Assembly: GCF_900167205.1 (NCBI RefSeq)
Contig: NZ_FUWW01000009.1
Location: 1 to 64,000, forward strand
Reading direction: 5' to 3'
Length of the DNA: 64,000 nt
From: Eubacterium coprostanoligenes
GTDB lineage: Bacteria > Bacillota > Clostridia > Oscillospirales > Acutalibacteraceae
Shown here: one piece after another, positions 6,343 through 56,278 of the stretch
Numbering within the stretch: the stretch's first letter is position 1
How the letters are laid out: each line of letters opens with the position of its first letter
The notes under the pieces: generated by a model
What the model was told of the DNA's origin: nothing
The model's database searches: none
The model's input: only the letters and a program-made list of their open reading frames with translations
Position numbers and translations under genes: made by a program

Positions 6343-6349
6343 AAAATAT

Positions 6350-6532
6350 CCACACATCCGCCTATGCCGAATATAACCTGCTGTTAAACGCAGGTGGGCA
6401 CCACCCAATAAATTTTGTGCTCCCAGCGTCCTGCAAAAGCAGGGAGGTCTGCATTCCCATAAATCGGAGTCTGGTTCCCTAAATATAAAAATTGTTCGGG
6501 TTATTTAGGCGATAGGTTGCCGAGATGCGCAG
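6350..6532 (-). ncRNA. ssrS: Probable 6S RNA (ssrS)
   Basis: An unexplained 183-base segment between the DUF1292 stop and the terminator. Read on minus, the ends pair: CTGCGCATC (6532-6524) with GATGTGTGG (6358-6350), then CCTATCGCC with GGCATAGG, giving a long closing stem. The G-U pairs in it become C-A on plus, so the RNA lies on minus. The 3' part contains GGTGCCCACCTGC, a hairpin to GCAGGTT and CGGCATAGGCGG, a pattern I associate with 6S RNAs, which bind housekeeping RNA polymerase. A TAATAT -10-like box is at 6541-6536. Length suits 6S. The family call rests on memory, not a covariance search. Confidence 0.6.
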
Positions 6533-6565
6533 ACAATATTAATTTATGTAATAACTATTCAATTA

Positions 6566-6883
6566 TTACTGTTCAGGTTCAAAATATTCAACATCGAATT
6601 TTTCTTCAACCTTTGCCATAAGAATATCGGAAATTTGCTCATATTCCATTTCGTCTTGAATTTCCTCAAGGAATTCGTCGCCGTTTTCATCTTCAACAAC
6701 CTTAAGAATAATTACTTCATAATCAGCGTCAACGATTTCTTCAGCGGTGTCGTGATATTCTGTAATAGCAACATAAACATCATCGTCTGTTTCGTATCTT
6801 TCAAGAAGTTCAAAGACAATTTCGTTTCCGTCTTCATCTGTAACAGAGAGAAGATCAGGTTCGTAGATTTCTTCGTTTTCCAT
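6566..6883 (-). CDS. DUF1292 family protein (YrzB-like)
   Basis: 105 very acidic residues, soluble, starting MENEEIYEPDLLSVTDEDGNE and matching the small DUF1292 family common in Firmicutes. Its function is unknown. In many relatives it follows the alaS-ireB-yqgF cluster; here it stands alone and precedes the 6S RNA candidate. GAGGTG lies 6 bases before ATG. Confidence 0.85.
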   Translation of the reverse strand: MENEEIYEPDLLSVTDEDGNEIVFELLERYETDDDVYVAITEYHDTAEEIVDADYEVIILKVVEDENGDEFLEEIQDEMEYEQISDILMAKVEEKFDVEYFEPEQ

Positions 6884-6993: not shown

Positions 6994-7022
6994 TTGACAA
7001 TCACCAAAAGGTGTGCTATTAT
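6994..7022 (+). promoter_or_regulatory. Consensus sigma-A promoter of the orphan RNA
   Basis: TTGACA (6994-6999), 17-base spacer, TATTAT (7017-7022). The predicted start is near 7029. This is one of the strongest promoter matches in the window, yet no conventional gene follows on this strand. Confidence 0.85.
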
Positions 7023-7069
7023 TTAGTTGAACTTAAGGATAGTTCGATAATCGAAAGGAGGCTGGAGAT

Positions 7070-7117
7070 ATGAAACTTCAGATTGATACACCAGCCACCT
7101 ATATAGTATCCCAATAG
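7070..7117 (+). CDS. Possible 15-residue peptide MKLQIDTPATYIVSQ
   Basis: ATG at 7070 preceded by AAAGGAGG with 8 bases between GGAGG and ATG, ideal for translation. The stop is TAG at 7115. The ribosome site and start are bracketed by a hairpin (GGCTGG with CCAGCC) that could hide them. No signal peptide or membrane segment. It could be a regulatory leader peptide, a microprotein, or simply sequence that must fold. Confidence 0.35.
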   Translation: MKLQIDTPATYIVSQ

Positions 7118-7316
7118 ATAACGGAACTTTTTCAATCGAGATTATTAAAACGGAATTAATAACCGATTGAGCATCTTATGAGATATTAATTAGTTATTGC
7201 AGGGTTGGGTATAATACTTGTAGGTGTCGAAAAAAGTGAATAGTAAGGATATATAAGATTATCATCCTGCAGATAGTCAGAGTAGATGGCTCTTAAAATT
7301 CAAACAAATTTATTGT

Positions 7317-7440
7317 GAGGTAAACTCCAATGTACTAAGTATTATCTTTTTGGATTTTAATTCTAAGATAAAGAGGTAAATTCCAATGGGCTAAGAAATT
7401 TCAAATTAGTTTGATTTGAGGTACGGTCCGATGTACAATT
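7317..7440 (+). repeat. Three spaced copies of a 23-base motif with tiny start-stop ORFs
   Basis: Copies at 7317-7339, 7373-7395 and 7418-7440. The first two agree at 20 of 23 positions, the third at 16 of 23 with the first. Each begins GAGGTA, has TCC, then ATG 9 bases after GAGG. The ATGs open ORFs of one or two further codons: ATG TAC TAA, ATG GGC TAA, and ATG TAC AAT TAA. Hairpins TATCTT/AAGATA and TCAAA/TTTGA separate the copies. They may be tandem protein- or ribosome-binding modules. Confidence 0.65.
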
Positions 7441-7463
7441 AAAATTAAATAATAAGGAAATAG

Positions 7464-7492
7464 CTCCCGGCTTTATTAGTCGGGAGTTTTGT
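7464..7492 (+). terminator. Intrinsic terminator of the orphan RNA
   Basis: CTCCCGGCT/AGTCGGGAG stem followed by TTTTGTTG. Its single G-U pair would be C-A on the other strand, which supports plus-strand transcription. Confidence 0.85.
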
Positions 7493-7548
7493 TGTGTGTA
7501 AACATAAAAAGAAAAGGGAAGTGAAAATCACTTCCCAAATTTACAATA

Positions 7549-8430
7549 TTATAATTGCGATGCTTCGTATGCAACACCCAAAAGTGCCGAGTCACCACCG
7601 AGTTTCGTTCTTTCAATCTTGACATTACGGAAGTTTTCCATAAGTCTGTTGTAGATTTTTCTGTCAATCAGCTCAATGATATAATCTTCATTCATAATTC
7701 CTCCACCAATTACAATCAACGGTGGATTGAAAATATAAATAATGTTCATCAATCCGAGGATGATTTCATCAATCCATTTGTCAATTTCCGATCTGATTTC
7801 AGGCTTTGACATATTTTCCTTTTCAAAAATCTGGAAAGCATCAAGTGGTTCGTCAGAGATCTTATTAACTGCATTAATCAAAGCATTTGCAGAAGCATAG
7901 CATTCAAAGCAACCCTCGCCACCACAAGTGCATTGCTTACCGCCTGCGTGAGTTATCATATGTCCGAGTTCACCGGCAGCCGATGTTGAACCTTTATACA
8001 GTTTATTATCAAGATAAATAGCTCCGCCGATACCTGTGCCGAGTGCAAGACTGATGAAATCAGAATATCCCTTTGCTGCACCAAATCGAGCTTCGCCCAA
8101 CGCAACAGCGTTTACATCATTTTCAACATAGGTCAAGATGCCTGTTTTGTTTTCAATAATGCTTTTTACCATCATTCCTGTGTAGTAAGGAATATTATCG
8201 GTTGAATAAACTACAATACCATTCTTGCTGTCTACCTGACCTGCGGTTGAAATAGCAACCCTGTCAATATTATCGTAGCTTTCAATAACAGCAATAATTC
8301 TCTGAATTATTGCTTGACCGCCTTCCTTTGCATTGGTAGGCATTTTTTGTTTTTCAGAAAGCTGAAATTTTTCATTACACAAAGCGTATTTTATAAATGT
8401 ACCGCCAATATCGAAGCATAATATTCTCAT
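7549..8430 (-). CDS. nanK: ROK-family kinase, probable N-acetylmannosamine kinase
   Basis: 293 residues. An N-terminal ATPase phosphate motif DIGGTFIKYALC, ALGTGIGGAIY near residue 130, and the ROK zinc motif CTCGGEGCFECYAS near residue 170 with GHM upstream identify a ROK sugar kinase. Glucokinases and NanK share this fold. It starts 1 base after the nanE stop and faces divergently to nanA, so phosphorylation of N-acetylmannosamine in sialic-acid breakdown is the likely role. Substrate choice is inferred from context. Confidence 0.88.
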   Translation of the reverse strand: MRILCFDIGGTFIKYALCNEKFQLSEKQKMPTNAKEGGQAIIQRIIAVIESYDNIDRVAISTAGQVDSKNGIVVYSTDNIPYYTGMMVKSIIENKTGILTYVENDVNAVALGEARFGAAKGYSDFISLALGTGIGGAIYLDNKLYKGSTSAAGELGHMITHAGGKQCTCGGEGCFECYASANALINAVNKISDEPLDAFQIFEKENMSKPEIRSEIDKWIDEIILGLMNIIYIFNPPLIVIGGGIMNEDYIIELIDRKIYNRLMENFRNVKIERTKLGGDSALLGVAYEASQL

Positions 8431-56042: not shown

Positions 56043-56272
56043 ATAAAAAGCCCCTGTCAAACGACAGAGGCAGTAATACTGCGGTTCCACTCTGATTTAT
56101 ACTCAAGCTACCAATATAGCCTTTGCGGATAACGGTGCCCACCGTCTCAAAATACTAAATTTCCTTTGAGAAGCTCATGGGTGCATTTCACAATTTAACC
56201 TATACAAACTCTCACCAACCGTTTGCTCTCTGAATAGGCGAAAAACTGTTACTTCTCCCAATCATAGCCTTT
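56043..56272 (-). promoter_or_regulatory. T-box riboswitch, cysteine-specific, upstream of cysE-cysS
   Basis: On minus the leader contains the T-box sequence AGAGTGGAACCGCAG (56093-56079) followed by a terminator stem GACAGAGG/CCCCTGTC complement at 56070-56051 with a T tract. A TGC codon, flanked as GAAATGCACC (56185-56183), lies in the specifier position of Stem I. Uncharged tRNA-Cys would stabilise the antiterminator and allow expression of cysE, cysS and the reductase. Confidence 0.92.
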
Positions 56273-56278
56273 AAATAC

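Follow-up and report, generated by a model that had tools for sequence, protein, structure and literature searches.

The window, a 64,000-nt stretch of the genome of Eubacterium coprostanoligenes, carries at 7027-7492 on the plus strand what looks, from its sequence, like the gene of a discrete, autonomous, structured RNA. It contains an open reading frame (ORF) of 15 codons and three further ORFs, here called minigenes, that are just two or three codons long and have Shine-Dalgarno sequences. Our favoured, still tentative reading is that of an undescribed RNA family whose minimal ORFs serve to dock ribosomes and which probably acts as a brake on translation. That the RNA family as such is real is practically certain, and its architecture (family, structure, ORF frames, spacing, 16S rRNA complementarity and synteny) is well supported. 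The features of the locus are the following.

6343..6538, minus strand: 6S RNA gene, conserved neighbour (Rfam match, synteny).
6566..6883, minus strand: DUF1292 gene, conserved divergent neighbour (synteny).
6994..7022, plus strand: promoter TTGACA, 17-nt spacer, TATTAT, with extended -10 (TG) (sequence; conserved in homologues).
7027..7492, plus strand: putative transcript of about 465 nt (start placed from the promoter, end from the terminator).
7054..7061, plus strand: Shine-Dalgarno sequence AAAGGAGG of sORF1 (sequence).
7070..7117, plus strand: sORF1, 15 codons (MKLQIDTPATYIVSQ), 3' end inside helix P4 (frame openness in homologues).
7093..7298, plus strand: structured core domain, hit of covariance model R1 with 148.9 bits (covariance model, covariation).
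7096..7226, plus strand: helix P4, 7096-7101/7105-7109/7110-7114 with 7221-7226/7214-7218/7205-7209 (covariation).
7199..7270, plus strand: pseudoknot of GCAGG (7199-7203) with CCTGC (7266-7270) (covariation).
7317..7338, plus strand: minigene 1, GAGGTAAACTCCA followed by ATG TAC TAA, ATG at 7330 (pattern search).
7373..7394, plus strand: minigene 2, GAGGTAAATTCCA followed by ATG GGC TAA, ATG at 7386 (pattern search).
7418..7442, plus strand: minigene 3, GAGGTACGGTCCG followed by ATG TAC AAT TAA, ATG at 7431 (pattern search).
7462..7492, plus strand: intrinsic terminator, 11-pair stem at 7462-7488.

The promoter matches the consensus at 11 of 12 positions, with TG preceding the -10 hexamer. 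Since promoter-like sites by themselves are no rarity in AT-rich DNA such as this (12 found, 9.8 expected), it is the conservation in homologues that makes this one credible. A 52-nt stretch around it is matched by 78 other loci at 73-92% identity (at least 82% in 58 of them), a count that is partly circular because most of these loci were found via a similarity including that stretch; the promoter is also present in genome G007, which the DNA search had overlooked. Transcripts of the homologues would be 441-599 nt long, with a median of 521 nt, as judged from 52 of 64 homologues (terminator located, no gaps, 11 set-aside copies excluded). The minimum free energy of 7029-7495 is -112.5 kcal/mol (z = -3.88), and none of 100 shuffled sequences folded as low. 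No ORF of at least 50 amino acids occurs on the plus strand between 6914 and 7554, and the next gene (7549-8430) lies on the opposite strand to the RNA. The initial annotation had listed the promoter, a G-C-rich terminator, several stems and the opposed orientation of the next gene, and had concluded that the element is not a leader; all of this stands, the stems with strong covariation in addition. Its description of about 465 bases without a normal gene holds for ORFs of at least 50 amino acids and has to be amended for the 15-codon ORF and the three minigenes.

A covariance-model scan delivered no Rfam 15 family at the site at gathering scores, ROOL, GOLLD and OLE included. With relaxed settings (E up to 5) the segment 6800-7700 gave nine weak hits, all below the cut-offs and none to ROOL, GOLLD or OLE; among those discarded as below the cut-offs are His_leader and RsaE, both on the other strand, and BSR1350 and rli40 on the strand of the RNA. 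The only Rfam matches of 14 homologous loci (E up to 0.05) were T-box and 6S RNA. A T-box leader is also located in the window at 56063-56274 on the minus strand (135.6 bits). In the open-licence literature no comparable RNA is described among the matches listed, as far as titles and the starts of abstracts tell. The proposal that the element is undescribed agrees with the Rfam covariance search, which has no matching family for it, and with the homologue search and covariation analysis, which gave covarying stems. Its suggested resemblance in size and complexity to ROOL, GOLLD and OLE, none of them recognised, remains correct as to the missing Rfam match; the RNA carries tiny ORFs and is not simply an ornate non-coding RNA.

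The element had also been called an orphan, which it is not: the covariance model R1 of its core matches 60 of the 80 genomes of the genus, and other genera and one other family have versions at the same site. By DNA search, 50 of 98 relatives gave a match, 48 of these belonging to the same genus, and within the genus 61 of 80 genomes matched. R1, which also recovered G007, finds the core in 44 of 51 good-quality genus genomes, with one copy per genome. Genus genomes with the RNA include metagenome-assembled genomes from goat rumen (two), sheep ileum and roe deer omasum. The homologue set comprises 79 copies from 80 loci, reduced to 64 by removal of identical ones; L068 is a truncated version of L051. 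The minigene counts leave out five loci (L049, L050, L077, L068 and L048) as belonging to another lineage, being cut short or having no recognisable core. Against 61 genus loci R1 gave 59 full matches, a partial one for L006 at a contig end and none for L048. Loci L049 and L077 were found by promoter similarity, are without the DUF1292 neighbour and show no minigene (L077 by eye); their membership in the family is doubtful. In three species (L026, L031 and L041) helix P1, in the 5' part of the RNA, has an insertion of roughly 230-340 nt, which is alike in all three, looks structured and gave no Rfam match.

The DUF1292 gene is found upstream on the opposite strand in 59 of 64 loci, followed beyond it by the 6S RNA gene in 56 of 64 loci (BLAST) and additionally, by cmscan, in L050. 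Three of the five loci without DUF1292 have less than 100 bases upstream; the others are L049 and L077. Downstream, nagK is located in only 4 of 64 loci and the RNA is kept regardless; a conserved same-strand gene downstream, as expected of a cis-acting leader or riboswitch, was not found, nagK being the gene counted. Because the next gene lies on the other strand and nagK follows in so few loci, the RNA is, judged by gene order, not a leader of a protein gene. Across the order, 6S RNA was found in 95 of 117 genomes, and a DUF1292 match lies close to it in 39 of the 50 loci that were fetched. A DUF1292 gene immediately upstream of 6S RNA and in the same orientation is a recurrent arrangement in the order.

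The core is supported by compensatory changes. A structure drawn by eye on 52 aligned cores has 78.9% of its cells paired, and 48 of its 54 pairs change on both sides; its covariation score is 0.404, versus 0.202 for shuffled alignments and at most 0.113 with the partners slid. After refitting to the model, the alignment (64 rows, of which five are weak or partial hits) scores 0.494, a value to be read with the leaning of this alignment towards the model structure in mind. In P4 (helices 1 and 2 of the refitted alignment) all 18 pairs change on both sides. The CCTGC strand of the pseudoknot sits in the loop of helix P5 (7257-7262/7273-7278), which is helix 7 of the refitted alignment. Changes on both sides are seen in all five pseudoknot pairs, which were outside the covariance model (11 cells; 0 of 500 shuffles), GUCGG/CCGAC in L027, L042 and L061 being an example; further pair types are no more numerous than in shuffles (72 of 500). 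Helix P3 (AUAAC/GUUAU) received no covariation support.

The 7110-7114 strand of P4 is the end of sORF1. P4 joins this end to the segment that follows the pseudoknot strand, and translation of sORF1 would therefore require the ribosome to open P4. The frame of sORF1 is open for at least 10 codons in all 60 homologues used of the 64, versus 23 of 60 in each of the other two frames, and its length is 10-19 codons, mostly 15-16. In homologues it is preceded by GGAGG. Its residues are similar within clades and drift between them, with MKLQIDTPATYIVSQ here and MDLEPGQTSTRNVIQ and MVDLEPGQTNACSVFR elsewhere. Some species possess an extra ORF of roughly 10 codons (MLRNFIVSKK, MIRRFIVFKK, MRRNFNILIK); the first two of these show its similarity between species.

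The typical minigene unit is GAGGU-N4-5-UCC-R-AUG, followed by the codon(s) and the stop, so that an AUG, one sense codon and an in-frame stop behind a Shine-Dalgarno sequence, as in a two-codon minigene, are all found. Among 136 ATGs following CC[AG] in the 3' regions of 59 homologues, an in-frame stop occurs after at most one codon in 97, at most two in 123 and at most four in 132; in the shifted frames the same limits give 0, 50 and 68 (+1) and 1, 16 and 40 (+2), and the other ATGs of the 3' regions (n=115) give 13, 29 and 40. Stops after one codon are TAA (70), TAG (19) and TGA (8). As second codons TAC (63), GGC (24), CAC (15), TTC (11), GAC (10), AGA (5) and others (8) are used; 126 of 136 end in C, and in 48 of 59 copies Tyr follows the AUG of the last minigene. 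By regular expression, the 3' region contains one short ORF in 3 copies, two in 28, three in 24 and four in 4 (59 copies).

The cleanest test of the frame, a pattern search across the 80 genomes of the genus allowing gaps of 3, 4, 5 and 6 nt between ATG and TAA, gave 54 matches. All 47 matches in minigenes of the RNA (46 assigned by contig and coordinates, plus G007, confirmed as RNA) have gaps of 3 or 6 and are in frame, whereas none of the 6 matches elsewhere is in frame, all having gaps of 4 or 5; one further match falls in a sORF1 with a gap of 5. With the pattern reversed as a control, the same genomes yielded 4 matches. Minigenes 1-3 are the sole matches of the minigene pattern in their own genome. 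Successive starts of short ORFs are a median of 52 nt apart (88 gaps, minimum 45), with 74 of the 88 gaps at 45-69 nt and 14 at 82-159 nt.

The 16S rRNA of this genome ends in GGCTGGATCACCTCCTTTCT, with which both the GAGGU and the UCC halves of the minigene site are able to pair. The predicted duplex with this tail has a mean of -11.1 kcal/mol for the minigenes (n=131) and -16.3 kcal/mol for the sORF1 sites (n=60). Ordinary non-overlapping genes reach a mean of -8.8 kcal/mol (n=59; 9 at -11 or below), a comparison that favours the genes, for which the best ATG was chosen (-8.7 without the overlap filter). Replacing CC by AA in silico lowers the strength of the minigene duplex to -8.0 kcal/mol, and CC[AG]ATG occurs in none of 40 predicted genes. 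Inside GG-x...y-CC (n=131) the two bases read U,U 72 times (74 expected under independence), U,A 27 times (25 expected), A,U 22 times (20 expected) and A,A 5 times (7 expected); U at both inner places fits pairing with A of the 16S rRNA. A local GG/CC hairpin within the ribosome site was rejected, because these inner bases do not covary. A greater accessibility of minigene sites was likewise unsupported, the predicted unpaired fraction being 0.41 versus 0.45 for the rest of the 3' region (52 RNAs).

Outside the genus, the same site next to 6S RNA holds a promoter and an RNA read as this type in 11 of 50 6S loci of the order, namely in six genomes of four other genera of the family and five of a second family (f26); in the remaining 39 no RNA of this type was recognised. 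In 8 of these 11 loci there is at least one minigene whose AUG is followed by one or two codons; L118 has a minigene with four codons, and L111 and L114 have only an ORF like sORF1. The minigenes of other lineages read ATG AAA TAA, ATG ATT TAA, ATG AGA TAA, ATG ACT TGA and ATG TAC ACG TAA. In L112, from another genus, the same site shows by eye a promoter, two minigenes, two sites without AUG, a 15-codon ORF and a terminator; in L116 and L088 some site units are likewise without AUG. R1 matches none of 24 other-lineage and viral loci. As these include all 11 same-site RNAs of other lineages, the ornate core seems to belong to the genus alone and the small ORFs to be spread more widely.

The pattern GGTGAGTCC[AG]ATG-N3-6-TAA was found in 19 of 295 genomes of the order, several of them near relatives, with 25 matches, 24 of which are in frame by hand count; the reversed control gave 0. 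In a class-wide sample the same pattern occurred in 11 of 391 genomes. Of these, 4 are from outside the order, with the match out of frame in two and in frame in L165 and L166. The latter pair have apparent short RNAs with further units and a terminator; both genomes belong to one genus (f55), and the apparent terminated RNA of about 290 nt has three ribosome-site units, the last being TCCACCTAAATAA without ATG. Omitting the stop from the pattern raised the number to 43 of 295 genomes of the order (reversed control 0). At 31 GGTGAGTCC[AG]ATG sites of other genera, stops within 5 codons number 11, 7 and 12 in the three frames and do not discriminate between them; many of these sites are starts of longer ORFs or are like sORF1, several beginning ORFs of 15-19 codons that resemble it. 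Single minigenes stand, by eye, directly behind a promoter-like site in L132, L133, L136, L137 and L140. Another RNA type, with a promoter-like site, ATG TAC TAA about 20 nt downstream and a similar body, occurs in L136, L137, L172, L174 and L175; in L136 and L137 it is located, by eye, behind an rlmH-like gene. Minigenes of the form GGTGAGTCC[AG]ATG also appear, by eye, in apparent leaders of secreted-protein genes (L134, L149 and L150).

Nine IMG/VR contigs (L151-L159) contain a different RNA with two short ORFs and a terminator, in the order promoter, ATG GGC TAA, ATG GAC NNN GTA GCT TAA, terminator (for example L153, about 1802-2010). The starts of the two ORFs are 54-59 nt apart in the nine contigs, which look closely related. 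By eye, the unit mostly lies upstream of a gene whose start resembles that of a PHP-domain DNA polymerase. This viral unit might serve as an attenuator or exert its effect on the host.

The frame of the minigenes is kept and their product is not, their sites fit the 16S rRNA, the steps between them are ribosome-sized, and there is no protein gene; taken most simply, this would make the engagement of ribosomes the job of the RNA. The minigenes are likely to be translated or at least loaded with ribosomes. Transcription, minigene translation, re-initiation and titration are what we infer from the sequence, as follows. The strong promoter would drive an RNA of about 465 nt, with the 15-codon ORF threaded through the pseudoknotted domain in its 5' part and the minigene array in its 3' part. 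The bipartite site (GAGGU...UCC) may pair with the 16S tail over the Shine-Dalgarno core and beyond, and ribosomes would load at every site. As the minimal ORFs end at once, no useful protein would be added, and on so strong a site the ribosome would probably initiate again without leaving. At intervals of about 52 nt, adjacent sites could be occupied at the same time. The RNA would thereby titrate ribosomal subunits or initiator complexes and damp translation under some condition, as a counterpart on the ribosome side to the action of 6S RNA on RNA polymerase. Titration of ribosomes as the main function is a possibility we put forward with reserve. Several observations fit it poorly. Predicted pairing is no lower at the minigene sites than around them (unpaired fraction 0.41 versus 0.45), and a plain trap needs no complex core as in this genus. 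Codon 2 ending in C (126 of 136) is needless for a pure minigene. The sites without AUG in L112, L116 and L088 mean that binding without translation may suffice or that the motif has another role, and the 31 sites without a fixed stop distance (11, 7 and 12) give no support by themselves.

The single minigene of other families, which stands in the leader of a protein gene or opens what appears to be a longer RNA at its 5' end, fits protection of the RNA equally well. Parked ribosomes would then shield the RNA from a 5' exonuclease or from endonucleases, and its working part would be the pseudoknotted core or the sORF1 peptide. In Bacilli a ribosome site near the 5' end can stabilise long downstream RNA, and the ribosome-binding site of a mini-ORF protects an mRNA, according to PMC3997798 and PMC8708949. 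Four groups (f14, f19, f20 and f21) have, by eye, one minigene about 20 nt after a promoter-like site and before an apparently longer RNA, and the strong covariation of the core speaks for this reading as well. Yet this core was found in one genus only, up to four regular sites in the 3' half exceed what a 5' guard needs, and L112 and the viral versions have little else needing protection. For this last reason we prefer the trapping of ribosomes as a brake; protection, somewhat doubtful as the whole explanation, comes close behind, and both may hold.

It is unlikely that the RNA is primarily a dual-function mRNA whose products are the peptides, sORF1 with about 15 amino acids and those of about 10 amino acids such as MLRNFIVSKK, with the minigenes tuning translation or folding. 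This would account for a sORF1 frame open in 60 of 60 homologues, mostly at 15-16 codons and with similar residues within clades, for a second ORF alike between species (MLRNFIVSKK, MIRRFIVFKK), and for the ORFs of 15-19 codons behind the same ribosome site in other families. However, the residues of sORF1 vary greatly between clades, its ends are bound in helices, so that the conservation may be partly structural, and L112 is without a sORF1 of this type.

Action of the minigene products themselves, through peptidyl-tRNA drop-off or formyl-dipeptides (fMet-Tyr, fMet-Gly, fMet-His) that deplete tRNAs or signal, appears quite improbable. Tyr as second codon of the last minigene (48 of 59) would speak for it, but the second codons vary (Tyr, Gly, His, Phe, Asp, Arg and others). 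Overexpressed two-codon minigenes can be toxic, the more so with a strong Shine-Dalgarno sequence and UAA, and the axe-txe minigene was neither trans-acting nor growth-slowing, both according to PMC8708949; early peptidyl-tRNA drop-off is frequent in E. coli, as stated in PMC10192219.

That the RNA is non-coding and purely structural, with GG-N-CC-RAUG-NNC-UAA serving to bind a protein or another RNA and the stops there by chance, is very improbable. Copies without AUG and the C at the end of codon 2 (126 of 136 in the genus) would be expected of such a motif; the interchange of three stop codons, the gaps of 3 or 6 in 47 of 47 matches and the retention of the stop behind AAA, ATT, ACT and AGA second codons in other lineages would not. 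A leader or attenuator of a neighbouring gene, for which the motif in apparent protein-gene leaders elsewhere (L134, L149 and L150, by eye) might argue, is hardly credible here, with the next gene facing the other way and nagK following in no more than 4 of 64 loci, the RNA persisting in the others.

Of the RNAs with which a ribosome brake may be compared, ROOL, GOLLD and OLE have a similar size range and an ornate fold; the RNA described here has no covariance-model match to them and contains ORFs. RNAIII-type dual-function small RNAs are large structured RNAs with an embedded short ORF, as is the present RNA, which differs from them in its several minimal ORFs and 16S-complementary sites. 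6S RNA is a decoy for RNA polymerase. It is encoded next door, and a decoy of the central enzyme of a process is proposed here by analogy; there is no known relation in sequence or structure, and the target would be the ribosome. The parallel to 6S RNA is suggestive and no more, and synteny alone proves no shared role. In phage lambda, bar is a two-codon minigene of AUG, codon and stop with a Shine-Dalgarno sequence. The known minigenes (lambda bar, LEE1 and axe-txe) are single, lie in leaders or within genes and act in cis or when overexpressed, whereas here rows of them stand within an autonomous, terminated, structured RNA. According to PMC8708949, the single minigenes described so far stabilise RNA or affect an adjacent ORF in cis, some being toxic when overexpressed, and the leader minigenes of EHEC LEE1 and axe-txe share with those described here the AUG-codon-stop ORF with Shine-Dalgarno sequence and effects on translation or RNA stability. 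STAB-SD and mini-ORF sites share the strong Shine-Dalgarno sequence, and binding of the ribosome matters there and not the product (PMC3997798); unlike them, there is no mRNA body to protect here, and several sites follow at intervals of about 52 nt.

More broadly, and with still greater caution than for the brake itself, we propose that Clostridia of this order and some viruses own a dedicated class of RNA that parks ribosomes on rows of strong sites complementary to the 16S tail, each with a minimal AUG-X-stop ORF behind it that would let a ribosome do no more than start and stop; it would be a counterpart of 6S RNA, linked to it by conserved gene order. What is conserved widely is a set of minimal ORFs, which would set the RNA apart in kind; should RNA protection alone be at work, it would stand closer to known elements. 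An RNA with minimal ORFs as its widely conserved content would be a new regulator, being neither an antisense RNA nor a riboswitch nor an ordinary mRNA. If this is true, start-stop ORFs, known in bacteria singly in leaders, can form the body of an RNA, annotation and RNA databases miss genes that stand between coding and non-coding, and a handle would be given on how gut bacteria limit translation.
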